IMG/VR virus record: IMGVR_UViG_3300011116_000574
Span: 36,658-100,657 of that record
Reading direction: 5' to 3' (one strand)
Length of the DNA: 64,000 nt
Source of the DNA: a virus
Shown here: positions 2,595-39,763 of the stretch, in pieces
Position numbering within the stretch: the first letter of the stretch is position 1
How the letters are laid out: every line of letters begins with the position of its first letter
Translations under genes and position numbers: made by a program
The notes under the pieces: generated by a model
Databases searched by the model: none
What the model was told of the DNA's origin: nothing
The model's input: only the letters and a program-made list of their open reading frames with translations

Positions 2595-2864
2595 TTATTC
2601 CCAGAAGTCCTGTATTTCAGACAAGTCGTTGATACTTTCAATGTTGGCTCGCTCATAGCATAGGTAAAGCGTATTTAGTAAAGCGTGACCAATCATAGAA
2701 GCGGTGTCATAAGAAGCCAAATCTGCTTCTGTTAGATAATCAAAGTCAAATTCTTTTTCTGTTTCTGATAAAGCAAATAGGTATTGCTCTACAAGAGTTT
2801 CAAAGTCAATGAACATCTTGCCCTCGTGAACCATTGAATTTAGTTCGCCGTCTGCTATAAACAT
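2595..2864 (-). CDS. hypothetical helical protein (89 aa)
   Basis: The ATG at 2864 follows ACCGAAAGGAAAGAA. The protein is mostly helical and acidic (FETLVEQYLFALSETEKEFD, then TASMIGHALLNTLYLCYERA) and ends SINDLSEIQDFWE. It is a single-gene unit with its own promoter and terminator. No family is recognised. Confidence 0.7.
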   Translation of the reverse strand: MFIADGELNSMVHEGKMFIDFETLVEQYLFALSETEKEFDFDYLTEADLASYDTASMIGHALLNTLYLCYERANIESINDLSEIQDFWE

Positions 2865-2892
2865 TTCTTTCCTTTCGGTAGGTTATGTAATA

Positions 2893-2922
2893 ATCTTAGC
2901 ACACATTACCGACATTTTCCAG
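2893..2922 (-). promoter_or_regulatory. early-type promoter for gene 2595-2864
   Basis: Leftward: CTGGAA (2922-2917), an 18-base spacer starting AATGTCGG, extended -10 TGC-TAAGAT (2898-2893). Confidence 0.6.
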
Positions 2923-2973
2923 AGAAATTTTAACTAATCGTAAATAAGCTGAAAAAGATCGGGGTAGCCCGAA

Positions 2974-2996
2974 GACCCAGTTTGTCAAACTGGGTC
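2974..2996 (-). terminator. perfect 10-bp hairpin overlapping a stop codon
   Basis: GACCCAGTTT-gtc-AAACTGGGTC is perfect. The last codons and TGA stop of gene 2985-3191 lie inside the hairpin. The apex reads TTTGTCAAA, the same core that recurs in other hairpin loops of this region. Confidence 0.6.
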
Positions 2997-3191
2997 GCAG
3001 GTGGTGTAGAAAAATTGGATACTATCCGCAGGAACATAAATTATTTCATCACCTGTTTTTGTTTCAAAAGATAGTAATCCGTTTTCAATACGGAAAGCAT
3101 TGTCTGGGTGAACATCTGGGAACTCATAGGGGTTAGCAATTCCGTTTGGTTGTTCTTTGTAGACAATGTGTAAGTTAGTTTGAAATTCCAT
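2985..3191 (-). CDS. hypothetical beta-rich protein (68 aa)
   Basis: The sequence begins MEFQTNLHIVYKEQPNGIAN and continues with FRIENGLLSFETKTGDEIIY and VPADSIQFFYTTCDPV. Alternating hydrophobic residues suggest a small beta barrel that ends in an exposed Cys. It is the last gene of the WhiB operon; its ATG is two bases after the previous stop. No family is assigned. Confidence 0.7.
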   Translation of the reverse strand: MEFQTNLHIVYKEQPNGIANPYEFPDVHPDNAFRIENGLLSFETKTGDEIIYVPADSIQFFYTTCDPV

Positions 3192-3296
3192 TTAGTAGTC
3201 CTCTTTCGCTTCTGGTACACTAGCACCGCATAGCATACAGGTTGGGTTGGTTCTGTCTGTTACATTGACAATCGGGTGAACTTTACACTCTTTCAT
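3192..3296 (-). CDS. very small zinc-ribbon-like protein (34 aa)
   Basis: The ATG is at 3296-3294 and the TAA at 3194-3192. It has C4, H7 and a C20-x2-C23-G knuckle (TCMLCG), enough for one zinc site. It overlaps the end of whiB by 14 bases and is followed at once by the gene at 2985-3191, so the three are co-translated. No function is known. Confidence 0.6.
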   Translation of the reverse strand: MKECKVHPIVNVTDRTNPTCMLCGASVPEAKEDY

Positions 3297-3498
3297 TTTT
3301 CAATAACGCCTTTCGCTCGTCACCGAGTAGACCGCCATAAATACCGTCTACACTTTCATTTGAGAGTGCGAACTCTAAGCACTCTGATTTTACAGGGCAA
3401 GCGTTACACAATGACAACGCCAACGCCCTATCTTTTAGTTTGGCACTAAAAAAGATTTCTGGGTCTGCCTCTAAGCAATTTGCCTTATCCTGAAACAT
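3283..3498 (-). CDS. whiB: WhiB-family transcriptional regulator (71 aa)
   Basis: WhiB-like proteins bind a [4Fe-4S] cluster and the primary sigma factor, and occur in actinobacteria and their phages. The four ligand cysteines are at 8, 31, 34 and 40 (C-x22-C-x2-C-x5-C), followed by the diagnostic GIYGG turn (53-57) and a basic tail (ERKALLKNERV). At 71 aa it is at the short, phage-type end of the family. I start at the ATG at 3498 because an upstream extension would cross the promoter and the CGAAAGGCAGA ribosome site. It is a candidate switch for the repeated early promoters nearby; that link is inference. Confidence 0.93.
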   Translation of the reverse strand: MFQDKANCLEADPEIFFSAKLKDRALALSLCNACPVKSECLEFALSNESVDGIYGGLLGDERKALLKNERV

Positions 3499-11214: not shown

Positions 11215-12186
11215 ATGAAGGTTTCTTTTACGGGTGCTCCCGAACATATGTATGTAGCTCTAGGCTATGGTAACGCATCTTGGCATATTTTTCAAAGTAT
11301 GAAGAAATTAGGTTTAGATCCCGTGGTTCGGGATAAAGAAGCAAAGGTTGGTATTTCTTTCTGTCAACCCGCTCATTATTCCTTCGGCGAAAATCAATAT
11401 AAAATTGGTTATACACCTTGGGAGTCTACAGAATTTCTTCCTAATTGGCAAGAGGGCTTAGAATTAGCAGATGAAATTTGGACTACATCGCATTGGAATA
11501 AGAAAATCTTTGAAGCTAAGTTAGATAAAGAAGTATTTGTCTACTTGCATGGTATAGACAAAGAGTTTATGCCTATGAAGCGTAAATGGGATAGATCAGA
11601 GCCATTTACCTTCTTACATATTGGCGAGCCATTTAATCGTAAAGATGGTCAACTTGTTGTAGATGTATTTGCAAGGCTCTATGGCAACGACCCCCGCTAC
11701 CGCCTGATTATGAAATGTACAAAGTCAAACATGCTAAGTCTGATGAATATGCCACCAAATCTAGTTTGCAACAACATTATCATCAGAAATGATGTTATTT
11801 CTCGTGAAGAACTCATCGACCTATACGCATCTGTTCAATGCTTTGTATATCCATCTTGGGGAGAAGGTTTTGGATTTAATCCACTTCAGGCACTAGCTAT
11901 GGGTATTCCAACTATTTGTACCGCAGAGTGGGCGGAGTACAAAGATAGAATTACACTACCTCTTGACTCTGAATCCGCATGGTCTCCTTGGCAAGAAGTT
12001 CACCCTGGATATATGGTAAAACCTAGTGCAGAACAACTTGCTCAACATATGGTAGAGGTTGTAGAAAACTATGATAAATATTGTGCAGTAGCATTTAAGA
12101 ACTCTGTAAAAGTTCATAGAGAATATGACTGGGATCTTGTTACAAGACCCGCTGCAGGTAGATTAAAAAAAATTATAAAAAACTAG
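11215..12186 (+). CDS. GT4-type glycosyltransferase (323 aa)
   Basis: This is a GT-B fold glycosyltransferase. The C-terminal half carries the sugar-nucleotide motif GEGFGFNPLQALAMG (about 219-233) plus YPSW before it and a conserved FLHIGEPFNRKDGQLVV start of the second Rossmann domain (about 136-152). The N-terminal acceptor domain has GYGNASWHI and GYTPWEST. Likely roles are DNA-base glycosylation or virion or cell-surface glycan modification; the sequence does not decide. It has a strong promoter and a leaderless start, and stands alone before nrdJ. Confidence 0.88.
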   Translation: MKVSFTGAPEHMYVALGYGNASWHIFQSMKKLGLDPVVRDKEAKVGISFCQPAHYSFGENQYKIGYTPWESTEFLPNWQEGLELADEIWTTSHWNKKIFEAKLDKEVFVYLHGIDKEFMPMKRKWDRSEPFTFLHIGEPFNRKDGQLVVDVFARLYGNDPRYRLIMKCTKSNMLSLMNMPPNLVCNNIIIRNDVISREELIDLYASVQCFVYPSWGEGFGFNPLQALAMGIPTICTAEWAEYKDRITLPLDSESAWSPWQEVHPGYMVKPSAEQLAQHMVEVVENYDKYCAVAFKNSVKVHREYDWDLVTRPAAGRLKKIIKN

Positions 12187-12212
12187 ATTTTAGAAAAAAA
12201 TAATGTTACACT
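12184..12212 (+). promoter_or_regulatory. promoter for nrdJ
   Basis: TAGATT, a 17-base spacer, extended -10 TGT-TACACT (12207-12212). AAAAGGTGTG serves as the ribosome site before the ATG at 12251. Confidence 0.5.
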
Positions 12213-12250
12213 AGAAACCTAATCAAAAAAATGAAAAGGTGTGTGTATAC

Positions 12251-14179
12251 ATGAGCGGGATAGAAAATCCTTATGAAAACTTTATTGCGCTTAGCCGTTA
12301 TGCTCGTTGGCTAAGCGAAGAAAATAGACGAGAAACTTGGTCAGAGACCGTAGATAGATATTTTGATTATATTCAAAAACATCTAAAGGACAAGCATGGC
12401 TATGTGCCAGATGAAAAGCTTGTTGCCGAATTAAAACAATTTGTATTCGATAGAAATGTAATGCCTAGCATGCGTTCAGTTATGACCGCAGGTACTGCGT
12501 TGGAAAGAGATAATGTTGCAGGATATAATTGCTCTTTTCTTCCTGTCGACTCACTTCGTTCATTCGATGAAGCAATGTATATTCTTATGTGTGGAACAGG
12601 GGTAGGTTTCTCAGTAGAGAGTATGTATGTGAATAAGCTTCCAGTAATTGCAGAGTCATTCGAAAAGACCGACACAATTATTGTTGTAGAAGATTCAAAG
12701 GCGGGCTGGTCAAAAGCACTGCGTGAACTTATTGCATTACTATATCAGGGTCAGATTCCTGCAATTGATGTTTCTAAGGTCCGACCTGCTGGTGCAAGAC
12801 TAAAAACTTTTGGTGGTCGTGCATCTGGTCCTCAGCCATTAATTAATCTTTTTGATTTTACTATCAAAACATTTAAGCATGCTGCTGGTCGTAAACTAAA
12901 GCCTATTGAAGCGCATGATGTCATGTGTAAGATCGGCGAGGTAGTTGTAGTCGGTGGTGTACGCCGTAGTGCTATGATTTCTCTTTCCGACCTCAGCGAT
13001 CACGATATGGCAACGGCAAAAACAGGTGCTTGGTGGGAGAATCATCCACAAAGAGCATTGTCTAACAACTCAGTTGCATTTGCTGGAAAGCCAGAAATGA
13101 ATGACTTTATTGCAGAATGGAAATCTGTTTATGACTCTAAGTCTGGTGAGCGTGGTATTTACAATGTAAAAGCTGCACAAACACAAGCAGCAAATTTTGG
13201 TCGCAGAGATTCAGAAATTCATTATGGAACTAATCCCTGCTCCGAAATCATTCTTAGACCATATCAGTTCTGTAATCTTTCAGAAGTTGTACTTCGTGAA
13301 GAAGACACAGTTGAGCATATTGCTCGTAAAGTAGAGTTGGCAACTATTCTTGGAACTTGGCAGTCAACCCTAACAGACTTTAAGTACTTGCGTAAAATTT
13401 GGAAAGATAATACAGAGGAAGAGCGTTTACTTGGAGTTTCACTTACTGGTCAGTTTGGTCATAAGTATATGTCTGGTCAACAGGGGCTTGAAAAGCTCGC
13501 TAACACCCTTGACTTTCTTAGAGAACTTGCAGTAACAACAAATGTTGAAGAGGCTGGCAAAATTGGAATTAATCCATCTGCAGCAATTACCTGCGTAAAG
13601 CCATCTGGAACTGTATCTCAGCTAGTTGGAGTTTCATCTGGCATGCATCCTTGGCACAGCGATTACTATATTCGCACTGTTCGTGGAGATAAAAAAGATC
13701 CACTAACTCAATTCCTAAAAGATTCTGGAATTCCCGCCGAAGATGATTTTATGAAGCCAAATGACACTACTGTTTTTTCATTCCCAATGAAAGCACCTAA
13801 AAATGCTATTAAGCGTAATGATCTTACAGCAATTGAACATTTAAATGTTTGGCTTACATACCAAAGACACTGGTGTGAGCATAAGCCATCAATTACAGTT
13901 TCTATTCGTGAAGACGAATGGATGGAAGTTGGTGCTTGGGTATACAAGCACTTTGATGAATTATCTGGAGTTTCGTTCCTGCCATATTCTGAACACACCT
14001 ATGTACAAGCACCTTATCAGGATGCTACAAAAGAAGAGTATGATGCTTTTGTAAAGAAAATGCCAAAGCATATTGCTTGGGAAAATCTTTCCCTTTACGA
14101 AACAGAAGATAATACTACTGGTTCTCAATCACTTGCCTGTACAAGTGGAGAATGTGAATTGGTAGATATTGGGGCATAA
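12251..14179 (+). CDS. nrdJ: class II (B12-dependent) ribonucleotide reductase (642 aa)
   Basis: It reduces ribonucleotides to deoxyribonucleotides with adenosylcobalamin, supplying dNTPs for phage replication. Visible motifs are GYNCSFLPV (redox Cys of the pair), GTGVGFSVE, RPAGARLKTFGG, NPCSEI (thiyl radical Cys), PSGTVSQLVGVSSGMHP (substrate phosphate loop) and a C-terminal CTSGEC pair that re-reduces the active site. It looks like the monomeric RTPR type but is shorter than the 739-residue Lactobacillus enzyme. I chose the ATG at 12251 over the GTG at 12239 for its ribosome-site spacing. It needs host B12 or B12 uptake. Confidence 0.92.
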   Translation: MSGIENPYENFIALSRYARWLSEENRRETWSETVDRYFDYIQKHLKDKHGYVPDEKLVAELKQFVFDRNVMPSMRSVMTAGTALERDNVAGYNCSFLPVDSLRSFDEAMYILMCGTGVGFSVESMYVNKLPVIAESFEKTDTIIVVEDSKAGWSKALRELIALLYQGQIPAIDVSKVRPAGARLKTFGGRASGPQPLINLFDFTIKTFKHAAGRKLKPIEAHDVMCKIGEVVVVGGVRRSAMISLSDLSDHDMATAKTGAWWENHPQRALSNNSVAFAGKPEMNDFIAEWKSVYDSKSGERGIYNVKAAQTQAANFGRRDSEIHYGTNPCSEIILRPYQFCNLSEVVLREEDTVEHIARKVELATILGTWQSTLTDFKYLRKIWKDNTEEERLLGVSLTGQFGHKYMSGQQGLEKLANTLDFLRELAVTTNVEEAGKIGINPSAAITCVKPSGTVSQLVGVSSGMHPWHSDYYIRTVRGDKKDPLTQFLKDSGIPAEDDFMKPNDTTVFSFPMKAPKNAIKRNDLTAIEHLNVWLTYQRHWCEHKPSITVSIREDEWMEVGAWVYKHFDELSGVSFLPYSEHTYVQAPYQDATKEEYDAFVKKMPKHIAWENLSLYETEDNTTGSQSLACTSGECELVDIGA

Positions 14180-17325: not shown

Positions 17326-20300
17326 ATGTCATATGATTTACAAGTACTAAGAGATAATCCAATTGGTTATTGGTCATTCAATAATACCAATAAGGATATT
17401 ACTAGATATGCTAATACGGCTACTGTTAGTGGGTCTTATACAACCCCGCCGATTATTGCAAATGGCGGATATTCGCTAAAAGTAAATAGTTCTACTACTG
17501 CTACTATAACTAACACTGCTGGTAAATATGAATGCTTTTCCAATAACTATCAAAATAGAACCTTTACGATTGCTTTTTGGCTTAGCCTTAATAACCAATT
17601 AAATGGTTCTGGTGCTGGAACTTATACAAACGATCAACTTACCCTACTATCAATTAAAAACGGTGCCACAGTAATTGGTAAAATTGTATACGATTATAAG
17701 TCGAATACGGTTAGGTATACTTTTCCAGGAACAAATAACAAAGATTCTTATGCGGTCATTGATGATTTTGACAAGCAATATTACATAGTTGCAACATATT
17801 CTAATGGAAGTCATTCTATAAAAATTAATGGTAGAAATGGGTTTATTGGTTTGGTTAGCGATTTTTCAAATATGACATCAGCAACAAAAAGCAATATCTC
17901 CTTTGTCATTGCTGATACAAGTACCACATCAAACTTTCTTACAAATAGTTTAGCTTTTTACGACTATCAAATTTCAGATGAGCAAATAAAAAGACATATT
18001 CTTTGGGCAGGAAATGATGAAAAACCAAACTTTCAAGGCTCAATTTCTGCAAGCACATCCATCTTTACATTCTTAGAAGAAAATCAAGATTTAGGTTATG
18101 CAAAAACTATTTCTGGTCAAGATTTCCTAATATTGGGAGAGTTGGATAAATTAAATGTGACGGATTCTGGATTAACTCCATTAAAGTTAGACACCCCAAC
18201 ATTTAATACCAACTACGATAGTACCGCATCCTATACAATAAATAGTTCTTCTGGAATAAATTGGTCGGGATCTGCGGGAGTAGACATTAATTTCTTTCCA
18301 AATTATTTTAATATGACAACTGGATTTACTTTATATATGACAGTAAATAGAACTTCTACTGGAAGTTATAACGAATATTTATTTGGACTATCAAATGTAA
18401 ACGGACAAAGCATGTTCCTTGAGTATAATGTTCCAGATGGAAATACAAACTATTATTTAAAAATGTATGATTCTTATACTGGCTCTACCACAACCATTGT
18501 TAGTCTAGCTAGTGGTCAATCAGCATCTACCGCAAAAATTTCAAATGTTGCCGTACAATTTTCTGGAAGCCTAATTAATCTTTACACATCTGACAATTCT
18601 GGAGTAACAGCATCGTCTACATCTGGTTTACCCCTTAATATGAATCAGAATTCAATATTAACCTTGGGAAATAGTTATAATTCTCCAAAAAATTTATATT
18701 CTTATATAGAAGATTTTGGGGTAACAGATCAGTATTTTGCTAGTGTTACATCAATCCCCTTTGGCAGTGTTTCTAACTTTATCATGCCATTAACAGCATC
18801 AGCTAGTCCATTTCTTATTAAACAAAGAGGAACCTGGATACATCAAGTACCATCCGTAGTTATACCTTTTTATAATTTTTACGGAACCGTTTTTGACTGG
18901 AAAACAATGGATAACTGTCAGGTTCTTTACTCTGTTGATAATGGAAGCACCTACAACATTGTAAATAGGCATCAAACTGCAAGTTTATATAATACGCTTG
19001 GTGTTGCGGGTAATATTGCAGTAAAAGTTCAAATTGATACAGACTATGTGTTAGATCAAAAAAATCAATCCTTTAATAATTTTTATTACAATGTTTATGG
19101 TCCGATGAGTTTAATTTCTGATAATGAAATGTATACTCTGTCATCATCAACATCTAGCGTTAGCCCAAACCTAAGAATATCTAATGGAACTAATAATATT
19201 TTAGCAAGACAAAAAAACTTTGGCGTTAAATTTGGAGGAGAGTTGCCAACAAATGCTCTTATTACTGTTCCAACATCATCTTCTTATTCCGCCATTGAAA
19301 TGTGGTATAGACCAGATTTTATTCCAACTCAAACATTAAGAACAAATATCATTAAAAATCCATCTTTTGAAGTTACCCCAACTGCGAGTATGTTTATAAC
19401 TTATAATACAAATTATCCAGTAAGCACATCAACAGCATCCCCACTATTTAGAACTAGAAGCGTAACTCAAAATACAGGAACATTCCTAAATGCACAGATT
19501 AGAATTGGTTTTCATAGAACTAACTCAGTAGCCCTTCCAATATATTATTCTTGTGATCCTGGTCAAGCATATACTTTTTCTTTCTATATGTCAGACATAT
19601 TAATGCCATCTCCATCTATTACTGCAAGAATAAGATTTTATAATTCTGCTGCATCAGCAACAGTTCTTTCAACAACAACTTCAACTAGCACTATATCAAC
19701 AGCATCTTACACAAGGGTTTCTGTGACCGCAACTGCACCCACATCTATAACAGCGTCTTTAAACGGAAATTTAATATTTCCAGACTTTTTTTGTCCTACA
19801 AACACTACATCAAGTTATAGTGGTGGTAGATTCCAGGCAGATGGAATTTTATTAGAGGCAAGTCCAGCACTAAATGAATATTTTGACGGTTCGTTTACAG
19901 GTGCTTCTTGGTCGGGAACTGCAGACATTTCATCATCAAGCTTGCTATACGCCAGTCCAGTTCATATAATAAATAATACAATAGATCAAAAAATTAGCTC
20001 TAGTTCTATTGCAACCGCCCCAGCTATATACATAGATAATTTGGGTAAATTTAGATCTTTGGGTGGAACCTTATATATAAACGGTGCATCCGTAGTTGAC
20101 GGGTCATATTCTGCTAGTCAAAATGAGCTGTATCATTTAACTTTGGTTTTATCATCACCAACATCATCGGCTTTGTATTTAAATGGTGGTAATTTAGTAA
20201 TGAACTCTACAAGAAGTAAAGGTACATATGGATATCTACAATTTTGGAATAGTACCCCAACTGCAGCAGATATTTTAGATAGATATTCCCAGTTTGTTGG

Positions 20301-20391
20301 TAAAACAATAGTGTCAATTACCGACACAAATACAACTAAATTATACTCTGCCTTGTCGCCAGAATTATATATTATCACCAGTCTTGGCTAA
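17326..20391 (+). CDS. LamG-containing tail or receptor-binding protein (1,021 aa)
   Basis: The N-terminal ~220 residues have the concanavalin/LamG pattern (NPIGYWSFNN ... FTIAFWLSLNN ... ATYSNGSHSIKINGRNG). A second LamG-like block follows (about 290-470). A carbohydrate-module-like segment starts IIKNPSFEVTPTA (about 685-850), and a last LamG-like block has IEMWYRPDF and LYINGASVVDG. Tandem sugar-binding domains fit recognition of host surface glycans. No catalytic residues are seen. It is AT-rich and Asn/Ser/Thr-rich like the other fibre genes. Confidence 0.8.
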   Translation: MSYDLQVLRDNPIGYWSFNNTNKDITRYANTATVSGSYTTPPIIANGGYSLKVNSSTTATITNTAGKYECFSNNYQNRTFTIAFWLSLNNQLNGSGAGTYTNDQLTLLSIKNGATVIGKIVYDYKSNTVRYTFPGTNNKDSYAVIDDFDKQYYIVATYSNGSHSIKINGRNGFIGLVSDFSNMTSATKSNISFVIADTSTTSNFLTNSLAFYDYQISDEQIKRHILWAGNDEKPNFQGSISASTSIFTFLEENQDLGYAKTISGQDFLILGELDKLNVTDSGLTPLKLDTPTFNTNYDSTASYTINSSSGINWSGSAGVDINFFPNYFNMTTGFTLYMTVNRTSTGSYNEYLFGLSNVNGQSMFLEYNVPDGNTNYYLKMYDSYTGSTTTIVSLASGQSASTAKISNVAVQFSGSLINLYTSDNSGVTASSTSGLPLNMNQNSILTLGNSYNSPKNLYSYIEDFGVTDQYFASVTSIPFGSVSNFIMPLTASASPFLIKQRGTWIHQVPSVVIPFYNFYGTVFDWKTMDNCQVLYSVDNGSTYNIVNRHQTASLYNTLGVAGNIAVKVQIDTDYVLDQKNQSFNNFYYNVYGPMSLISDNEMYTLSSSTSSVSPNLRISNGTNNILARQKNFGVKFGGELPTNALITVPTSSSYSAIEMWYRPDFIPTQTLRTNIIKNPSFEVTPTASMFITYNTNYPVSTSTASPLFRTRSVTQNTGTFLNAQIRIGFHRTNSVALPIYYSCDPGQAYTFSFYMSDILMPSPSITARIRFYNSAASATVLSTTTSTSTISTASYTRVSVTATAPTSITASLNGNLIFPDFFCPTNTTSSYSGGRFQADGILLEASPALNEYFDGSFTGASWSGTADISSSSLLYASPVHIINNTIDQKISSSSIATAPAIYIDNLGKFRSLGGTLYINGASVVDGSYSASQNELYHLTLVLSSPTSSALYLNGGNLVMNSTRSKGTYGYLQFWNSTPTAADILDRYSQFVGKTIVSITDTNTTKLYSALSPELYIITSLG

Positions 20392-29270: not shown

Positions 29271-29297
29271 TCTAGTATACAAATAAAGGAGGTTGCT

Positions 29298-29633
29298 GTG
29301 GCAACAACAGTATACGATGTTGAGGAAATTCAACTATCAAATGGGGAGACATTAGTTATCAAACCACTTACAATTAAACACTTAAAGAAATTCTTAAAAG
29401 TAATGAAGAAAATGGAAGATCCTAAGATCGAATCCGAAGAGCAAGTTATGGAAATCTTTGTTGAAGGTGCAATGGTTTGTCTAGAACAGTTAAAGCCAGA
29501 ACTTTCAGAAGACCTTGAAGCATTTGAAGAGGTTATCGAAGTTCCTACACTTATGAAAATTTTAGAAGTTGCTGGAGGCTTAAAACTGAATGACCCAAAC
29601 CTAAGCGCAGCGAGTCTAGCTGGGATCAACTAG
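29298..29633 (+). CDS. tail assembly chaperone, G-like (111 aa)
   Basis: GTG 29298 follows AAAGGAGGTTGCT. Pattern ETLVIKPLTIKHLKKFLKVM, PKIESEEQVMEIFVEGAMVC, then VPTLMKILEVAGGLKLNDPN matches actinophage G proteins. It acts with its frameshifted form to guide tape-measure folding and tube assembly. A slippery CCCAAAC lies 11 codons before its stop. An upstream reading-frame extension has no ribosome site and runs into the terminator. Confidence 0.88.
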   Translation: MATTVYDVEEIQLSNGETLVIKPLTIKHLKKFLKVMKKMEDPKIESEEQVMEIFVEGAMVCLEQLKPELSEDLEAFEEVIEVPTLMKILEVAGGLKLNDPNLSAASLAGIN

Positions 29634-29914
29634 ACCTCGCTGATTTAGAATCGGAAGTCTTTCTTCTGGGTCATTGGAAAAATTATGATGACTTGGAAGC
29701 CAGTTTATCTGTCGAAGAATTGCTTGCTACACTTAAAGCAATTTATAATCGTGAAGACAGAAATAATAGATTCCAAGCTGCGTTACAAGGGGTGGATCTT
29801 GATGAGAAATCAAATGATGAGGAACTTGTATCGGATGTTAAGACCCTTACAGGGTACAGTGCTTCAAAGGCAGGATTTGGCATTGGTCTCGGTTTGGGAT
29901 ATGTGGAGGAATAA
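29298..29914 (+). CDS. tail assembly chaperone, GT fusion by -1 frameshift (205 aa)
   Basis: Ribosomes slip at C-CCA-AAC (29594-29600) into the -1 frame and read PKRSESSWDQLDLADLESEV, then FLLGHWKNYDDLEASLSVEE and so on to the TAA at 29912-29914. The T part shows the family hallmark WDQLDLADLE...F-LGHWKN-D-LEA. The frame is open from the slip site to the stop with no start of its own except a TTG. This matches the conserved G/GT arrangement of long-tailed phages. Confidence 0.88.
29594..29600 (+). promoter_or_regulatory. -1 ribosomal frameshift site CCCAAAC
   Basis: Canonical X-XXY-YYZ heptamer in the correct phase (C-CCA-AAC) near the end of the G frame and followed by the open T frame. Confidence 0.85.
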
Positions 29915-29917
29915 TAA

Positions 29918-32900
29918 GTGGTAAATCGTATTGACATTCAAGTTAATGCCACGGGAAACTTTGGTCAACTTCATGCTCAAATAGCGGAGTTAAAGGCTGC
30001 AGTTGCACAACTGCAGTCTAAACCACTTTTAGGAGATACTGGTAGGGCTACTGCTGCTCAACTTTCTCAAATACAAACACAGTTTGACAAGATGCTTTTG
30101 GCAACAAGAGCATTTAATGTTGAAACTGTAAAGATGTCAAACTCTATAGATAACTTTGGAAATAGATTACAGGCAGGAAAACTACACTTCTCTGAGTATG
30201 CAAGAATGTACCGTCAGACAATGAAGGGCATGCGTAACGAACTTGACGCACTTGCAGATTCACAAGCAAGAGTTGCAAAATCGGTTGTTCTTCCAGATGC
30301 ATTAAGAACTGGTTACGCTAGAGTAATTACAAATCTTACATCCGACCTTAAATCACTTAATGCTGCAGAAGAAGCAGCAATAATAAAAACAAAAGCTTTA
30401 AACTCTGTTATCCATGGAATGGGAACATCTTTGGTTAATATGGGTAAAAATACACAGTGGGCTGGTCGCCAGCTTACTGTTGGTCTTACCGTTCCAGTTG
30501 CAGCATTTGGCGCAATGGCTGCAAAAGTATTTAAAGATGTAAATACAGAACTTACAAGAATGCAGAGAATGTATGGTACTGGTTTATCTCTGCCTAGCGA
30601 ACAAGAAATAGCAAAAGTATCTACCGCAATTATAGATCTAAGTAAAAAAGTTGCAGAAAATATGGGTATTGCCCAAAAAGAAACTGTTACTGCTGCTGCT
30701 AATTTTGCTGCTGTTGGTACAACTGGAGATGCACTTATTGTAGCAACAGAACAGGCTATGCGACTTTCAAAACTTGGTGCCGTTAATGCTGACACCGCAC
30801 AAAAAACAATTACATCTTTGCAGACAACATTTAGGGTAGGCACTAAAGATGTTGCTGAAGCAGTAAACTTTTTGAATGATATTCAAAAACAGACATCCAC
30901 AGACTTACAAGATCTAACCGATGCAATTCCTCGTGTTGGTCCAATTGTATCTCAACTTGGTGGAACATATAAAGACACCGCAGTTATGATGGTTGCCATG
31001 AAAGAAGCTGGTGTTCCAGCAGCACAATCTGCAAACGCAATCAAATCCGCAGTTGCGTCTATGATTGGTCCAACTCGTCAAGCCAGGGATGAGTTTGAAA
31101 AGTATGGAATTAGTCTAACAAAAATTAAAGATGATACTCAGGGTAATCCAATTAAAATGATTGAAGCACTTCAGACTTCTTTGCAAAAATTATCACCACT
31201 TGTTCAAGCTCAGTTAATTGAAAAACTATTTGGTAAGTTTCAGTTTGCTCGTGTGACTGCACTTATTAACAATCTTGGTGCTGCAGGAAGTCAGACACAA
31301 AATGCTTTTCTAGTAGCAAAAGCTAGTGTTTCAGAACTTGCAAGACTAGCAGACTCAGAAATGAAAATTGCTACTGAATCAACAACAGCAAAGTGGTCTA
31401 GAGCACTAGAAGGATTTAAATCAACCTTGCTTCCTTTGGGTGAAAAGTTTATGAAATTTGGAACCAAAATCTTAGACTTCTTCTCTAAAGTAATGCATTT
31501 CTTAGATAGATTTAAACCTTTAGAAAACCTCTTAGTTAATGTTTTGGGTGGAGCAGCAATAGTTGGTCCTATTCTTATGCTAGTTGGTTTGTTTGGAAAC
31601 CTTGCTGGTAACATAATTAAGGGTGTAAACTACTTCAGAATGTTTGCTCAAGGGGCTAAAGATGGCGGAATTTTAGCTGGCTTTAAGAGCATGGCTAACT
31701 TCTTTGAAATGATTAACATTGAAACACTTGCATCTTCAAAAAATATGGATGGTCTTACAACATCTACTCAAAAAACCGTAGAGGCTTTTGCTGTACTTAA
31801 TCAAGAAATTGGAATTATGACCAGAAGTCTTAATGAAGTATTTGCTCGTAGCACTAGAATGCCAATAGTTGCATCTCCATATGCACAACAAACATTGGCA
31901 CAATTACAGACAATAAATCCCGAATATGTTGGCGGAGTAACAAAGGGACTAGAAAGACCACACATGTTCCCTGCTGCAAGACTTTGGGAAGGTTGGGCTG
32001 CAAATGAAGGAAACATACAGGGCAGAGTGCCAACGCTAAACGCCTTTTTACAAAATAGAGCACTTAATCCAACAATGGAGGCTCAGGAAAACTTTATGAG
32101 AGGTGGAATGCCAGAACAATGGGGTGCTCCAGTTCCATCAGGTGGTTTAGCTGCTCAACTTCAAAAAGAATACGGAACCGAAGATGTTATTCACGGTCCA
32201 AAATTTGGTCTTTCAAAAGAAGATGTTTACTCAAGAGGTTTTCAAAAAATAGAAAACATTAGGAGTAAAATACTTGACGAAAGAATAGCTGCAGATAGTA
32301 AAGTAGCAATAGAGCTTGCAAAAATTGACGCATTGCCAGAAGAACAAAAAGTTCAAGCTTTAACACAAATTATTCAGAAAGTTACATTTACTGAAGAACA
32401 ATATTTCAACAACCTAATTGAATCATTAGTTCAAACTCAAGCTTTACTTACCGCTCCAGAAGAAATGCTAAAGGCTGTAGACACAAAGGTTAAAACAGTC
32501 CTTGCTGACCCAACAATTGAAAATAAGTCTGTTGCTATTCAAGCAATACTAACCGAGTTTAACGCAGACTTTAAACTTCTTGGAGGAACAGTAGTTGAAG
32601 AAATAACTAAATATAGAACTTTAGTTCAACAGACAATACTCAGTACCACATCCACTTTTGAAACTGCCATAGCAGCAGCTAATTTTAGGGCTGGTATAGT
32701 TGCTAGTGCCGAAATGTTTGGCGGGGTAAGAAAAGGTGCTTTAGGAAGATTTGTCAGTATGGACAAACAAGCTTTATCACAATCAATATTAATGGCAAGA
32801 GATATTCCAAAAGGTTTCCAAACTGGTGGAGCAATTCATGCACAAGACGGTGTTTGGGTTCCAGGAACTGGCTCTGGAGATAGAGTTCCTGCAATGCTTG

Positions 32901-35900
32901 AGCCAGGAGAATTTGTTGTTAATCGTAATGCTGCTAAACAATATGGCGGGTTACTAGAACATTTAAACTGGAATGCTGCTCCAAGATTTGGAACTGGTGG
33001 AACTCCTAGTCCTACATCTGTTGGAATTAGAGGATATCAAAATGCTGGAGATGTAGAAAAGCCTAGGGTTAAAGCTTGGGTACCAAAAGATTTACTTGGC
33101 TTATCTAAAGGAGAAAACTTTTTTGCTCGCGACATGTATTCTCCAGGAAGCCAATTTCGAAGAATATTGTATGGTCCGATTTTAGATCAATTAAGAAATC
33201 AAGGCTATAAAGATGATGTTATTGAAAGAATTAAAAAAAGTTTTGACTCAGACAGAAATTTAAGATTATATGAGGATAGGTCTGCTTTATCAGAAGCACT
33301 TTCATCAGTAATTAGAAGAGGTAATCCATATGGAATAGACATAAGGGCTTTTTCAGAGGATGCTCGTGGAAGAATTATGGCAACAATTGAAAACGAAAGA
33401 CTTAGAACACACGAAGTTCATGATTTCAAATACTTTGACCCTAATGCACCAGTAAGGTTTTCACCAACAAGAGGCATGCCATCAATATTTAAACCTCTAA
33501 GAAAATTGAGTTTTGATGAAGCATATGGAGGAGATATAGGTTGGGTTAGAAAGCTAGTCCCAAGTCTAGCTGAAACATATATGTTAGCCCCATGGAAAGC
33601 CGATGATTATTTATTAGAAAAGCATGGGGCGCATATACTCTCTACAGCTCGTACACCACGCATAACTGTTGCTCAAAAAGGCGGTGGAATTCCAGGATAT
33701 CAAAGCGGATTAACAGTCCCAAGTATGGCATCTTTAAATAGAGAAGAACAGCAAGCTTTGATGGAAGAATATATTCAAAAAGCCCTACGCCCATCAAGTG
33801 CATTAAGTTTGTTACAAGAAGAAATTTTTTCTGCTGTTAGCCCATCTCAATTAGAATTGATACAAAAAGGTTATGGACATGAAGTTTTGCAATACAATTC
33901 AAATCTTGCAAAAATATTAGAACAGTACACTTTTAATGAAAAATCATTTGTTCTTCGACCAGGATATACTCCGCAAAGAGAGAGCTTTAACCTTTTCAAT
34001 ACATTGGGTAAAAATGAAAGATTCCATATGGGCATGAGCAAAACTCAATTTGAAACTTGGCAACCAACATCAATGTTTTCTACTAGCGAAAGGTCTCCTT
34101 TATTTACTAGAACTTTGGCTCAGGCTATCAAAGAGCAGGGCAAGGGAATTGGAAGTATTGGAGTTGTTCCAGAAGAACTAAGTTTAAGTCCTTTTAGTGA
34201 AAAAATGTATCAGAATTTAAGAAGACGGGGAATGGGAATAGAAGTTACAGGTAACGAGCCAGACTTTAGATCAACCCTATACGAAACAAATGATATTGAT
34301 TTAGAAGAATCAAGAAATACAACAAGACATATTTTGGATAGATTGTTGAGAAGAATAACAACTGACAAACTTTACAATAACTCTTTTACTTATAATTCTC
34401 AAAAACCTATTAGTGGTCAGCCTGGTGCTTATAGCATTAGTCGTGGTTTTGTGGATCAAATGGATGTTCAACATAGAATTCCAGAATTAGAAGCAAGAAC
34501 AACCATGATGAGATTCTTGAGACAAGGTATGTTTAAGCAAAAGGGTGGTGGAATTCCAGGATATGAGCAAGGTGGTGGTCCTACATGGATGGCTAGAGGC
34601 AATCCATATACAGAAGCACAGTTCCAACAATCTTTAGAATCTTGGATTAGACCAGTTCTTCACGGAATGGCTCCTTGGAATAATCCAGAAAAAGAAACTT
34701 ATCGACCAATGGGAGAATTATACAAAGGTTTCTACAGAGACATATTTAATGATCAGATGAGAAATATTGGTAGACAAGATCTTCTAAGAGCAATGGTTGT
34801 AGATAATGTTAAGGGCGGAGCAAACATGCACCCTTGGCTTACAAATATGGTAAATGCAGCAGAAGATCGCTATTACCCACCAGGCTTTCAGGGAATTAGG
34901 GTTCCAGCTATGGAAAATATTCAAGGTCCATGGGTAGCAAAAACAACAAGACCATTTACATCCTTTACTGACATTAAGGATACCAGCTTCTTGAAGAAAA
35001 GATTTATGCCAGACTTTGGAGATAAAAGATTCTGGAATGCAATGAATCGCGGAAACAAACTTCCATTTTTCTTGCATGCAATGACTGGACCAGAAACTAT
35101 GGGTCTGCCAGTTTCAAAATTATTTGCTGGACAAACTTACTATGGAAATGAAGGCGAGTATGTTTTACCACAAGGTCAAAAATTCCCAATGACGGGATAC
35201 AGTAGTGACCTTGCTACTAGATTACCAATAGTCCATTCTATTGCTCCAGGCTCAACTAAGATGATTGGCGGGATGAGAATTCCTGTTGCTCAAACTGGCG
35301 GTATGATTCCAGGATTCCAAGAGGGATACACAGATTATCTTGGCTCTAAAATTACAGGTCCGCTAGGATATGCTGTTCAGAGCGGAATTACGGGGACATA
35401 TAATCTAGAAACTAGCACAGGACCACAAACAGCTTATCTGAAGCAAATGTTTGAGCCTGGAATGTTTGATTATGGCGAAGCTCCAGTTAATAAAAGAGAG
35501 ATGGTTATGGAAGCATTCCTTAACCAATTACAAAGAGGCTTGGGTGGGTCTCAGGCTGCTATAGATCAAGTGTATTCAAGATTAATTGATCCATCTGGCG
35601 AAGGAGCATTAAGAGAAACCTCTGTTCTAAGGTCAAAGTTTTTGGAAGGTTTTGAAACTTACAAGAGTTCTGGATTATCAACAGCAGTTGGCGTAGAAGA
35701 TTTTAAGGGCAGAATAGATCCTCAACAAACATTCAAAAGGTTTATGGAGTCAGCACTTATTGGTAATGAAGATCTCCATGATGAAAACTTTGGCTATGTA
35801 GGCAAAACACCAACTGTTGTTGATAGTGGTATAACCGCTATACACAAACTATTAAAGGGTTATAGTGGATTTGATAATACTATATCTGAGCATGTAAACC

Positions 35901-38900
35901 TTGGAAATATGCACGATATGCGTAAAGCTGCAATGGTGGCAAAAACTTTACTTCAAGAGCAGGGAATCAGTATTGAAGAATTTAGTAAAACTCATATTGA
36001 TAGTTTAAGGTCAAAACTTTCAGAGGAACTTATTCATAACGCATTATTAAAAGCAACTGGCGGAGTCCCCGAATTAATGACCGTGTTTGATGAACTTACG
36101 CAAAAAAGCTATGGAGCAAATTTTGTTCCATCAATCACTAAAGTTTTGCACAAAAGACTTGATAGTTTAGCAAGGTTTGCAGATCCCACAAATCCTATGT
36201 CTGGAGCATTACCAAAATCAACTACACCACCACTTGCATCTAACATTATGAAAGGTTTTATGACCACTAGACTTCAAACTGGTGGAAGTGCTTGGGTTCC
36301 AGGATTTGGCGAGGGCGATAGGGTTCCAGCCATGCTTGAACCTGGTGAGTATGTAATTAATAAAAAAGCTGCTAAAGCATATGGCGGTTTACTAGAAGAT
36401 ATTAACTGGAATCAAGCCCCTAGATTTGAAACTGGAAATGAAGTTGGCAATAGACAAACTAGAAGAGGAAATGTTCCAATTGCTGTTACAAAAAACCAAG
36501 TTGGGGCAAATATTAAAGAATTTAATAATATGATGGCGGGTGTTCCAAGAATTGGATCAACATTAATTGCTGCAGGACAATCATTAAAAGTTTCAATTCT
36601 TAATGGAGCGCAAGCCTTAAAACAATCTGCAATAGCAACCAGAGAAGCCAACATGACTAGAGGAATGATTGCAAAAAATGAACTTAGAGGATTAAAGGAT
36701 AGTGTTGTTAATGGTGTAAGAAGTGGTGTTCTTGGTGCCGCTAAAGCTCCTGGAGCAATGATGAGAGGAATTGGAAGCTTTGGATATAATTCAATAGCAT
36801 CAATTAAAGAGGGTGGTAGAAACTTTGGTACGGGCTTTATGGGAGCAAGGCAAATGCAACCGATCCTTGGCGCAGACGGAAAGCAAGTATTTGATGAAAA
36901 AGGAAATCCTCAAAGCCGTTATGCAAAATTTAGTGAAGCAAAAGGTGTCGGTGGAAAGCTTGGCTATGCTTTAGGAAGACAATCTAGACCAGGAATGGGT
37001 TCTATGATTGGTGGTCAAATGCTTGGTATGGCTGCCATGCAAATGGCTGGAGGAATGCAGGAGGGTACTGCAAAATCTGCACTGTCTGGTGCAGGAATGG
37101 GTGCAATGCTTGGCGGTATGACCCCACTTGGTCCAATTGGTGGTGCTGCTATAGGAGCAATTGCATCGGGCGCATATAGCATGTATAAGCAGCATGAACA
37201 AAAACTTAAAAATGCAGCAACTCTAGTCAAAGACTCTTTAAATATGAGTGCTATTGCAATGCAACACTTAGGTGTTCAGGCTAGAGATTTTTCAAATATT
37301 ATGATTGATTCTTCTGGAAAAGCAACAAAAGCTACATCAGAATTTCAAGTTCAGGTTAATGATTATAAAAATGCTCAAGATGAAGAAACAAAAACTGCCG
37401 TTCAAGGAATGAAAGAAAAATTAGAATCGGGAGATATTTCTGGACTAAAAGAAATTATAAAAACAAGAGTTGCAACACAAATGAGCAGCCTTGTCAATCC
37501 AAATGATCCAGAAGCTAGAAAGAAAGTAATTCAAGACAACAAGGCTTTTGTTGCTTCATCTGGAGCAGGAATTGCAACACAAAGAGAAATTTTTTCTGGA
37601 ATTTCTTCAAAAACAACTCCAGAGTCAGCTATAAAACAACAACTAAAGCAGCTAGGTCTTTTTGACTTTAATTCTGTACAGAAAACTCAAATGATATTAC
37701 CAGCAGGAGTAAACAGGAAAAAATATCTTGAAGAGCATCCTTTAGCTGGACAAGATTTAACTATTGCAAATTTAGCAGCGGGTACAAATATGGGTGCTAA
37801 TACTACTCAAAAAATACAAATGACTAAAACCGCTAGTTCAATAACTTTTGACGAATCAAAAATGCAAGCTTTAATTACACAACTTCAAACAAAAACAGAT
37901 CCAATGCAACTTGGGAAAATGCTTGGACCATTAAATAAAGCAAGCGGAGATGTAAAATTGTTTAAAGAATCTATGAGCACTGTTGGTGTTGGTGGTGCTG
38001 GTTGGCAAAAACTTTTAGAAAGTGTAAAGAAGATGGATCCAGCTTTAGCAAAACTAGATCAACAATACGGAAGATATATTACAGATGGTACTCAAATAAT
38101 TAGAATAAATAATCTTATGTCTGCTGGAATGACACAATTAAATATTTCTCAACAAAGGCAAATTAATACTAATCCCAACTTAATTTCTGGATTAGAAGCT
38201 CAGTATAGTGCACAAAGTGCCGTAAGTGGCGGAATAGCAGATTGGATTTCAAATGCAGCACAGTATGACGCACAACAAAATGATCAAGCAGATGCTGCAA
38301 ATAAAGCAGCAGAAGCTTTACAAAGTCAAAAGGATCACATAAACAATTTAATTGATGGTCAAAACAATTATATTAAGTGGCAAAATAAAGCTATTGATGG
38401 TGTGCAAAAAGAAATGGATGCAAGAAACAAACTTGCAGATACACAAAATAAAGAAATCGAAAGAGAAAGAACACTAGCAGACCTAAAAGACTCTGTAACG
38501 GCTGCAAGAGCTTCTGGAAACTTACTTCAAATGGCAAGTGCTCAAAGCAAGTATAACGAAGAATTAGCTAAACAAGAAGAAGCTAAGAAAAAAGAAGCAG
38601 CTGATGCAGCCGATGAAAAGAAAATTGCAGCCTATAAAGCAAATATTGATAAAGCAAGTGCTCAAATTGAAAAGTATAATAAAAAACTTGAAGATCTGGA
38701 TAAAGCTTCAAATGACACTACAAAAACACAATCTAAGAACTGGAACACTGTTTCTGGAAAAGCGCATAAAGCAGAAAACGCAGTTAATGATGTTGGCACA
38801 GCCATTAAAGATGTTGGAAGTGGTGGGACATGGACTAGCCTAAAAGATTTCCAAGAAAAAGTTCTTGGTCAAAAAGGTATGAAGGGTAAATTAGAGGCTG

Positions 38901-39763
38901 CTGGATTATCTTCAGATCAAGTAAGAGATAAGATAAAAGAGCTATACACAAGTTTTGGGGGAAGTAAACAGGCAAAAGCAAATGAAGCGTTAGTTTCTAC
39001 TAAAAATGCAATCCTTGATATTAAAGATGCATCAGAAAAAGCTTTAGCTGTTCAACTTTTCACCAATATGTACACAGCAGACCCAACTGGAAATGTTAAA
39101 GACATGTCAAAGAGAGCAATGGCTGCTGCACATCAATTTACAGCTGCTACAAGTAATATGCCAACATCTCCTCCCACCCCAACACAAGACATGAAAAATG
39201 GTGCTGGTGACGGAAATTGGTATCAAGATCCAAAAGAAAAAGATTATTACTGGTTGTGGAAAGCAAAGGATAAAAAATTCTTTGAGACTCCTTCAGACAA
39301 AGCTGAGATGAAAGAAAAGGAAAGATTTGGATGGCACGACTATAGCGGTGGTAAATGGGGCGCAACAATTGAAGGAAAAGCTTTTGGTGGAATAATACAT
39401 GCAGCTACTGGTATAGGACCAGTTATGGGTCCAGGTGGACCAAGAGATGATTTAATTCCCGCCATGCTTTCAAATGGTGAGTATGTAATTCAAGCATCAT
39501 CTGTAAATAAATACGGAAAGACTATGATGGATGCAATTAATGGAGGAAACTTTTCTCCTAGATACGCAACTGGTGGTATAATGAGATCATATAGTGTTGG
39601 CGGGGATATTAATAACAATAGTGTTCTTCCAGCCCCACAGTACAATGTTAACATTGTTGTAAATGGCGCAAATGCAAGCGCAGATGATATAGCCGATATG
39701 GTTGCAACTAGATTTAGAAGAGAGACAGAAAGTATGTCTTCAGGTAGGAGTTTGAGAGCATAA
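29918..39763 (+). CDS. tape measure protein with embedded enzyme-like domains (3,281 aa)
   Basis: GTG 29918 follows GTGGAGGAATAATAA. Residues about 1-460 are a TP901-type tape measure core (AAKVFKDVNTELTRMQRMYG), with a hydrophobic stretch near 535-565. Residues about 965-1030 carry a GDRVPAMLEPGEFVVNR hinge found again near 2119-2175 and, variant, near 3175-3230. Between the first two hinges lie four segments separated by GG-x-IPG linkers at about 1253, 1540 and 1791: A unknown (1031-1250), B possibly STS-containing (1265-1535), C ADP-ribosyltransferase-like (about 1555-1787: R1661, S1682, E1745, E1747), D kinase-like (1805-2115: K1842, E1865, D1952, H1954, N1957, D1969). Hydrophobic Gly/Ala/Met helices at about 2360-2425 and a coiled coil (about 2815-2920) follow. 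If all residues were helical tape, the tail would be near 490 nm; the globular inserts make a shorter tail likely. Confidence 0.93.
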   Translation: MVNRIDIQVNATGNFGQLHAQIAELKAAVAQLQSKPLLGDTGRATAAQLSQIQTQFDKMLLATRAFNVETVKMSNSIDNFGNRLQAGKLHFSEYARMYRQTMKGMRNELDALADSQARVAKSVVLPDALRTGYARVITNLTSDLKSLNAAEEAAIIKTKALNSVIHGMGTSLVNMGKNTQWAGRQLTVGLTVPVAAFGAMAAKVFKDVNTELTRMQRMYGTGLSLPSEQEIAKVSTAIIDLSKKVAENMGIAQKETVTAAANFAAVGTTGDALIVATEQAMRLSKLGAVNADTAQKTITSLQTTFRVGTKDVAEAVNFLNDIQKQTSTDLQDLTDAIPRVGPIVSQLGGTYKDTAVMMVAMKEAGVPAAQSANAIKSAVASMIGPTRQARDEFEKYGISLTKIKDDTQGNPIKMIEALQTSLQKLSPLVQAQLIEKLFGKFQFARVTALINNLGAAGSQTQNAFLVAKASVSELARLADSEMKIATESTTAKWSRALEGFKSTLLPLGEKFMKFGTKILDFFSKVMHFLDRFKPLENLLVNVLGGAAIVGPILMLVGLFGNLAGNIIKGVNYFRMFAQGAKDGGILAGFKSMANFFEMINIETLASSKNMDGLTTSTQKTVEAFAVLNQEIGIMTRSLNEVFARSTRMPIVASPYAQQTLAQLQTINPEYVGGVTKGLERPHMFPAARLWEGWAANEGNIQGRVPTLNAFLQNRALNPTMEAQENFMRGGMPEQWGAPVPSGGLAAQLQKEYGTEDVIHGPKFGLSKEDVYSRGFQKIENIRSKILDERIAADSKVAIELAKIDALPEEQKVQALTQIIQKVTFTEEQYFNNLIESLVQTQALLTAPEEMLKAVDTKVKTVLADPTIENKSVAIQAILTEFNADFKLLGGTVVEEITKYRTLVQQTILSTTSTFETAIAAANFRAGIVASAEMFGGVRKGALGRFVSMDKQALSQSILMARDIPKGFQTGGAIHAQDGVWVPGTGSGDRVPAMLEPGEFVVNRNAAKQYGGLLEHLNWNAAPRFGTGGTPSPTSVGIRGYQNAGDVEKPRVKAWVPKDLLGLSKGENFFARDMYSPGSQFRRILYGPILDQLRNQGYKDDVIERIKKSFDSDRNLRLYEDRSALSEALSSVIRRGNPYGIDIRAFSEDARGRIMATIENERLRTHEVHDFKYFDPNAPVRFSPTRGMPSIFKPLRKLSFDEAYGGDIGWVRKLVPSLAETYMLAPWKADDYLLEKHGAHILSTARTPRITVAQKGGGIPGYQSGLTVPSMASLNREEQQALMEEYIQKALRPSSALSLLQEEIFSAVSPSQLELIQKGYGHEVLQYNSNLAKILEQYTFNEKSFVLRPGYTPQRESFNLFNTLGKNERFHMGMSKTQFETWQPTSMFSTSERSPLFTRTLAQAIKEQGKGIGSIGVVPEELSLSPFSEKMYQNLRRRGMGIEVTGNEPDFRSTLYETNDIDLEESRNTTRHILDRLLRRITTDKLYNNSFTYNSQKPISGQPGAYSISRGFVDQMDVQHRIPELEARTTMMRFLRQGMFKQKGGGIPGYEQGGGPTWMARGNPYTEAQFQQSLESWIRPVLHGMAPWNNPEKETYRPMGELYKGFYRDIFNDQMRNIGRQDLLRAMVVDNVKGGANMHPWLTNMVNAAEDRYYPPGFQGIRVPAMENIQGPWVAKTTRPFTSFTDIKDTSFLKKRFMPDFGDKRFWNAMNRGNKLPFFLHAMTGPETMGLPVSKLFAGQTYYGNEGEYVLPQGQKFPMTGYSSDLATRLPIVHSIAPGSTKMIGGMRIPVAQTGGMIPGFQEGYTDYLGSKITGPLGYAVQSGITGTYNLETSTGPQTAYLKQMFEPGMFDYGEAPVNKREMVMEAFLNQLQRGLGGSQAAIDQVYSRLIDPSGEGALRETSVLRSKFLEGFETYKSSGLSTAVGVEDFKGRIDPQQTFKRFMESALIGNEDLHDENFGYVGKTPTVVDSGITAIHKLLKGYSGFDNTISEHVNLGNMHDMRKAAMVAKTLLQEQGISIEEFSKTHIDSLRSKLSEELIHNALLKATGGVPELMTVFDELTQKSYGANFVPSITKVLHKRLDSLARFADPTNPMSGALPKSTTPPLASNIMKGFMTTRLQTGGSAWVPGFGEGDRVPAMLEPGEYVINKKAAKAYGGLLEDINWNQAPRFETGNEVGNRQTRRGNVPIAVTKNQVGANIKEFNNMMAGVPRIGSTLIAAGQSLKVSILNGAQALKQSAIATREANMTRGMIAKNELRGLKDSVVNGVRSGVLGAAKAPGAMMRGIGSFGYNSIASIKEGGRNFGTGFMGARQMQPILGADGKQVFDEKGNPQSRYAKFSEAKGVGGKLGYALGRQSRPGMGSMIGGQMLGMAAMQMAGGMQEGTAKSALSGAGMGAMLGGMTPLGPIGGAAIGAIASGAYSMYKQHEQKLKNAATLVKDSLNMSAIAMQHLGVQARDFSNIMIDSSGKATKATSEFQVQVNDYKNAQDEETKTAVQGMKEKLESGDISGLKEIIKTRVATQMSSLVNPNDPEARKKVIQDNKAFVASSGAGIATQREIFSGISSKTTPESAIKQQLKQLGLFDFNSVQKTQMILPAGVNRKKYLEEHPLAGQDLTIANLAAGTNMGANTTQKIQMTKTASSITFDESKMQALITQLQTKTDPMQLGKMLGPLNKASGDVKLFKESMSTVGVGGAGWQKLLESVKKMDPALAKLDQQYGRYITDGTQIIRINNLMSAGMTQLNISQQRQINTNPNLISGLEAQYSAQSAVSGGIADWISNAAQYDAQQNDQADAANKAAEALQSQKDHINNLIDGQNNYIKWQNKAIDGVQKEMDARNKLADTQNKEIERERTLADLKDSVTAARASGNLLQMASAQSKYNEELAKQEEAKKKEAADAADEKKIAAYKANIDKASAQIEKYNKKLEDLDKASNDTTKTQSKNWNTVSGKAHKAENAVNDVGTAIKDVGSGGTWTSLKDFQEKVLGQKGMKGKLEAAGLSSDQVRDKIKELYTSFGGSKQAKANEALVSTKNAILDIKDASEKALAVQLFTNMYTADPTGNVKDMSKRAMAAAHQFTAATSNMPTSPPTPTQDMKNGAGDGNWYQDPKEKDYYWLWKAKDKKFFETPSDKAEMKEKERFGWHDYSGGKWGATIEGKAFGGIIHAATGIGPVMGPGGPRDDLIPAMLSNGEYVIQASSVNKYGKTMMDAINGGNFSPRYATGGIMRSYSVGGDINNNSVLPAPQYNVNIVVNGANASADDIADMVATRFRRETESMSSGRSLRA

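Follow-up and report, generated by a model that had tools for sequence, protein, structure and literature searches.

An array of exchangeable modules, one of them probably kinase-like, in the tape measure protein of a siphovirus-like phage

Introduction

What does a phage tape measure protein (TMP) carry when a long part of its middle does not resemble tape? The question is raised by a TMP of 3281 amino acids (aa) encoded in IMG/VR virus record IMGVR_UViG_3300011116_000574, of which a stretch of 64,000 nucleotides (nt), corresponding to bases 36658-100657 of the 100,657-base record, was analyzed here (hereafter the window). A preliminary description of the window had proposed that the middle of this protein consists of protein cargo modules delivered into the host in the manner of T4 Alt. 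Here, we report that the TMP contains an array of linker-separated modules that are exchanged among related phages and maintained under purifying selection. We consider it fairly probable that the protein is a carrier of this cassette array, with a kinase-like module (HipA/PI-kinase type) in the fourth position, and that the array is delivered to the host.

Linkers and hinges outlining the array

Residues ~1031-2121 of the TMP are made up of four non-tape segments set between GGx(I)PG[YF] linkers (Table 1). The linkers and hinges lie where the preliminary description had placed them, except that one linker had been overlooked: a 27-nt repeat is present in five copies at module edges (32843, 33011, 33674, 34538 and 35291), and the copy at 33011 indicates that a degenerate linker also precedes segment 1. 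The whole array is flanked on both sides by copies of a 148-nt direct repeat that are 78% identical. Three GG..[IVLM]PG[YF] motifs were observed compared with 0.005 expected (5000 residue shuffles, maximum 1), so the linkers are not due to chance, and none beyond these three was found in the six frames of the window. Degenerate DNA for QKGGGIPG[YF] occurs in only four stretches in 2.9 million viral contigs, and each of these contigs encodes a TMP related to that of the window.

As had been noticed earlier, the segments are unlike the tape around them, with 8-12% aromatic residues versus 5.5-6.4%; they also contain 4.6-8.8% proline versus 2.8%, and their composition and conservation suggest that they are globular. 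The TMP of Streptomyces phage Coruscant (2133 aa) aligns with the window TMP at residues 5-564 and 2783-3220 only and that of TunaTartare (2107 aa) at residues 173-568 only. The array is therefore without counterpart in these ordinary related TMPs, which agrees with the earlier view of the segments as real modules. Without segments 1-4 the window TMP would be 2190 aa long, which is near the length of the Streptomyces TMPs, and thus the array looks added to the ruler and, on this comparison of lengths, probably lies outside it.

Module exchange and selection among relatives

Modules in common with the window were detected in three contigs (loci L001/L003, L002 and L006). In L003, the N-terminal core (N-core), segments 2-4 and the C-terminal core (C-core) are homologous to those of the window, whereas segment 1 is unrelated except for ~41 residues beside the hinge. 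In L002, only segment 3 is gone among segments 2-4, and the join lies 9 and 6 residues from linker motifs. The swapping of segments between the same linkers, which the preliminary description had proposed looking for, was thus observed both as replacement (segment 1 in L003) and as loss (segment 3 in L002), and the segment 1 type is common to these two relatives (blastp 2e-24). Another contig (L032) carries the linker without the modules; its one resemblance to them, a distant one, is to segment 3, with residues ~1580-1700 of its TMP similar to the C-terminal half of that segment (blastp 8e-4).

Between the window and L003, synonymous divergence (dS; a simple NG86 estimate from one pair of sequences) is 0.43 in segment 2 and 0.39 in segment 3, compared with 0.90 in the N-core, 0.75 in segment 4 and 0.89 in the C-core; since the first two values are about half the others, separate histories of the modules fit. 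The ratio of nonsynonymous to synonymous divergence (dN/dS) is 0.185 for segment 3, 0.18-0.21 for segment 4 (window versus L003 and L002; 0.30 for L003 versus L002) and 0.18-0.28 for the N-core, with higher values for the C-core (0.40-0.61) and the looser segment 2 (0.43-0.50). In addition, segment 4 is 73% identical between the window and L002, while the C-terminal tape (C-core) is only 34% identical. Low dN/dS and this difference in identity imply that segment 4 is a constrained domain and not filler.

Segment 4 as a kinase-like domain

The sequence of segment 4 makes a kinase-like fold probable. The Lys, Glu, catalytic Asp, Asn and metal-binding Asp of this fold are found in order as K49, E72, D159, N164 and D176 (K49, E72 and D176 being assigned by eye), and all are invariant in the three copies (window, L003 and L002), which have also kept a glycine-rich stretch around QSGITGTY, GN[EQ]DLHDENFG and DSG. 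Codons in these motif regions vary by silent changes, and columns are invariant at 93% in positions 20-60 and 81% in positions 155-180, compared with 64% overall.

When catalytic-loop fragments were compared with 24,736 Pfam families, only HipA_C (window E=0.05, L003 E=0.13) and DUF4135 (L002 E=0.08) were found; HipA is a kinase, and DUF4135, the LanM dehydratase domain, is likewise kinase-like in fold. PF07804 (HipA_C) has a single match in the six frames of the 100,657-base record, at the segment 4 loop. A profile-profile comparison of segment 4 with nine HipA proteins gave a score of 32.0, whereas the best of 200 column-shuffled controls reached 24.3, the reversed profile 18.0 and the other segments 16.5-20.4; in this alignment, D159 and N164 fall on the catalytic D and N of HipA.

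For segments 1-3, no enzyme or hydrolase match was found in Pfam, PHROG and NCBIfam scans, in which segment 4 had no hydrolase match either. No segment matched the phage collection, segment 4 alone at E<=10 giving chance-level matches only; segment 4 and the TMP N-terminus had no relative among 84,980 prokaryote species (one genome each), and profiles of segments 3 and 4 compared with PDB sequences returned nothing useful. Weak Pfam matches to AnfO, Rad54_N and Trans_coact (E 0.01-0.3) were taken as chance. An acetyltransferase assignment of segment 2, made by eye, was dropped as it had no support, and YKG, FTSFT and ExE motifs that suggested an ADP-ribosyltransferase in segment 3 were set aside, the Pfam scan of this segment being empty. 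ADP-ribosyltransferase families PF18760 and PF03496 had no match anywhere in the record, and the proposed likeness to T4 Alt is accordingly retained only in the sense of a virion-carried enzyme. The cargo proposal is partly supported, in that the modules are swapped or lost at linkers and one of them has kinase-fold motifs.

Modules in other related tape measure proteins

Two TMPs of a second clade (L045 and L048) have a different, unrelated kinase-like module (ABC1 E=2e-4, APH 1.3e-3, UbiB 9e-5). This ABC1/APH-like module was found in six contigs, always in a long frame 3' of a DSIPAYLSNGE hinge, and a kinase regular expression matched five real TMPs, representing two unrelated modules, and none of the shuffled TMPs. 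L104 and L106 are 98% identical over 1558 residues, through the kinase-like module up to the linker KGGAVGH, past which about 780 and 508 residues, respectively, are unrelated before similarity resumes. Replacement bounded by linkers thus extends beyond the clade of the window.

The TMPs of relatives range from about 1570 to over 4295 aa in length. Pfam domains in 20 long related TMPs include OmpA, NlpC/P60, phage lysozyme and M23. HExxH zinc-peptidase-like motifs, which are motif-level calls only, occur in TMP inserts of L032 (~2961 and ~3257, between hinges), L059 (~2666) and L051 (~3196), and three hydrophobic-HExGH motifs were counted in related TMPs compared with 0.15 expected. The end of the Coruscant TMP looks peptidase-like by eye. 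Residues ~1150-1350 of the L063 and L067 TMPs appear, also by eye, to be the same module (ILKSTAFKN...), located directly after the first insert in one and after a GGMVPGY linker in the other.

Genome setting

The TMP contains the PhageMin_Tail core, and its gene follows chaperone-like frames and precedes the minor tail genes, as is typical of a phage TMP. It matches tape measure family phrog_10030 (E=1.2e-99) and many further PHROG tape-measure families. The gene order (portal, protease, capsid protein, head-tail proteins, tail protein, chaperone-like overlapping frames, TMP and minor tail proteins) matches that of Coruscant, and the capsid protein shares about 54% identity with its counterparts in Stanwilliamsviridae; gene order and capsid identity make an actinobacterial host likely. 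The phage is siphovirus-like and a relative of this family. The portal, head protease and capsid genes indicate a phage; of the features of contractile injection systems, DUF4157 was absent from the TMP in the Pfam scan, and no sheath was found among the 18 window proteins compared with PHROGs.

Two overlapping frames 5' of the TMP (29297-29917) resemble a tail assembly chaperone pair, putatively produced through -1 frameshifting like that of related phages. Ahead of the portal gene, an open reading frame (ORF) of 1021 aa (17326-20391) has a PHROG of unknown function, phrog_11584, as its sole match, and glycosyltransferase and ribonucleotide reductase genes (11215-14179) adjoin the structural genes.

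Table 1. Features of the tape measure protein and its array (window positions unless a locus is named)
Feature	Position	Strand	Details
TMP ORF	29918..39763	+	3281 aa, GTG start, single unbroken frame; PF10145 and phrog_10030
PhageMin_Tail core (PF10145), residues 241-439	30638..31234	+	E=8.3e-29
Hinge 1 (GDRVPAMLEPGE region; motif at residue 987), 148-nt direct repeat copy A	32850..32997	+	Repeat search
Degenerate linker ahead of segment 1, PTSVGIRGY	33011..33037	+	Repeat family D2, 67% to reference
Segment 1 (224 aa)	33038..33673	+	Unrelated sequence in its place in L003, L002 and L006
Linker 1, QKGGGIPGY (GGGIPGY at residue 1255, nt 33680)	33674..33700	+	27-nt repeat
Segment 2 (288 aa)	33680..34543	+	Found in L003 (71%), L006 (44-45%) and L002 (40-42%)
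Linker 2, QKGGGIPGY (GGGIPGY at residue 1543, nt 34544)	34538..34564	+	DNA 93% identical to linker 1
Segment 3 (251 aa)	34544..35296	+	Found in L003 (90%), cleanly absent in L002
Linker 3, QTGGMIPGF (GGMIPGF at residue 1794, nt 35297)	35291..35317	+	27-nt repeat
Segment 4 (328 aa), kinase-like module	35297..36280	+	Found in L003 (78%) and L002 (72%)
Putative glycine-rich loop QSGITGTYN and lysine K49 (YLK), segment 4	35378..35443	+	(Nearly) invariant in three relatives; by eye
HipA_C-like catalytic-loop stretch including GNEDLHDENFG, segment 4	35711..35800	+	PF07804, E=0.013, 11 bits
Putative metal-binding DSG, segment 4	35822..35830	+	Invariant in three relatives; by eye
Hinge 2 (GDRVPAMLEPGE region; motif at residue 2133), 148-nt direct repeat copy B	36288..36435	+	Repeat search
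Third, C-terminal hinge, related (DLIPAMLSNGEY at residue 3178; GPGGPRDDLIPAMLSNGEYV)	39386..39592	+	Sequence motif
ABC1/APH-type kinase-like module of L045, residues ~3021-3306	L045:16855-17712		Also in L104-L109

Delivery to the host and alternative explanations

In the explanation we favor, the TMP holds four modules between two hinge copies, with a Gly/Pro linker between modules, and these modules are gained, lost and replaced at the linkers. By analogy with siphophages generally and with TMP-related effectors, the TMP would exit the tail ahead of the DNA, and the modules would cross the tail tube in an extended state, to fold again inside or at the host cell. The kinase-like module could then modify host molecules early in infection with host ATP, presumably in the cytoplasm because ATP is required, and modules would vary among phages because hosts and targets vary.

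Several points weigh against such delivery of a kinase. Close relatives of the window array number only three, ejection of the TMP and entry of its modules into the host are drawn from other systems, and folded domains may fit poorly in the tail lumen. The profile-profile match to HipA spans 31 residues only, and the PF07804 cut-off of 30.5 bits was missed both by the segment 4 fragment (13.7 bits) and in the genome search (11 bits), which leaves the segment outside the HipA family as defined by this cut-off. Full-length segment 4 had no kinase match in Pfam and segment 4 none in NCBIfam, and in neither the L003 nor the L002 record did PF07804 have a match at E<=10. AlphaFold models from 3-row alignments were useless for segment 3 (pLDDT 34) and segment 4 (pLDDT 35).

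It is unlikely, though the best of the alternatives, that the modules are structural, i.e., spacers or domains binding the tail lumen or tip without enzymatic role, and that the kinase-like motifs are remnants or chance. The wide range of TMP lengths among relatives would fit a tolerance of insertions, and segments 1-3 lack an enzymatic match; however, segment 4 exceeds the C-terminal tape in conservation with a dN/dS of about 0.2, the kinase expression is confined to real TMPs, and the protein minus its array already approaches the length of its Streptomyces relatives. We regard as quite improbable that the modules work while particles are assembled inside the producing cell, e.g., through phosphorylation of host or phage proteins, and are removed from the TMP by cleavage before or during tail assembly. 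TMPs of some phages, such as lambda gpH, are processed, the hinges are Gly/Pro-rich like cleavage or flexible sites, and ATP for a kinase is present in that cell, but excising a mid-protein array would split the tape unless it were spliced. Action at the cell envelope, for which the peptidoglycan hydrolase, OmpA and HExxH features of related TMPs, the peptidase-like end of Coruscant and the known use of TMP enzymes would speak, is very improbable, as the kinase-like module requires ATP, which is unavailable beyond the membrane, and none of the four segments matches a hydrolase.

A wider and more tentative proposal, about which we are somewhat doubtful, likens TMPs to polymorphic toxins on the phage side. 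They would serve generally as vehicles for effector modules that are exchangeable and bounded by linkers (kinases, possibly proteases and others), and these modules would reach the bacterial cytoplasm together with the DNA or ahead of it, where they would reprogram the host or block its defenses.

Comparison with known systems

Segment 4 shares the catalytic-loop motif (DxHxxN type) and its spacing with the HipA, ABC1 and APH kinase-fold families, but it scores under the family cut-offs and no similarity is detectable outside the loop. Precedents exist for three elements taken singly: enzymes within TMPs, virion proteins with several injected domains, and TMP-like effectors whose domains are exchangeable. 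Among phage TMPs with enzymes, an example is the peptidoglycan hydrolase motif of mycobacteriophage TM4 (cited in PMC13277306), which is likewise an enzyme domain in a tail-delivered TMP; TM4-type enzymes act on peptidoglycan, whereas the window TMP has several linker-separated modules, one of them kinase-like, that are exchanged among relatives. Polyvalent proteins and MuF-fused effectors (PMC9503650, PMC7824862) also join several predicted host-injected domains in one large virion protein, but in these papers they are carried by head proteins, and PMC9503650 makes no mention of TMPs. The window TMP has four modules, with enzyme motifs in one. T4 Alt is a virion-carried enzyme acting early on the host, as is predicted here, but it is a separate head protein and an ADP-ribosyltransferase, for which the window TMP gave no match.

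In the open-access literature, most subscription papers being outside the scope of the search, we found no description of exchangeable modules arrayed between linkers in a phage TMP. Mosaic signals at the sequence level were reported to be frequent in TMPs by a survey of mosaicism among phage proteins, but a genuine recent case could not be confirmed in its data (PMC10684548); two TMP clades here show clean, linker-bounded module replacement, and the linker motif provides a handle for finding further such TMPs. Provided that the modules do reach the host, TMPs would constitute a large source of phage enzymes acting on the host that has been overlooked, and such carriage would occur in siphoviruses, where it is less expected.

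Effector domains have been described in TMP-related tail-tube cargo of bacterial injection systems, namely Tme (PMC11126660) and Sle1 (PMC13277306). Tme, from the contractile injection system of Streptomyces davawensis, is likewise tape-measure-like with an enzymatic domain (endonuclease) and is loaded in a tail-like particle, but it belongs to a bacterial contractile system and has a DUF4157 core and a C-terminal enzyme, whereas the window TMP is that of a genuine phage and has its modules in the middle of the protein. Effectors of the Sle1 type, from contractile injection systems of actinobacteria, are also TMP-like with exchangeable functional domains; unlike the window TMP, they have a C-terminal domain only, without phage ruler or linker-separated array. 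If the proposed delivery is true, the array described here would be the phage-side counterpart to these TMP-derived effectors of actinobacterial injection systems.

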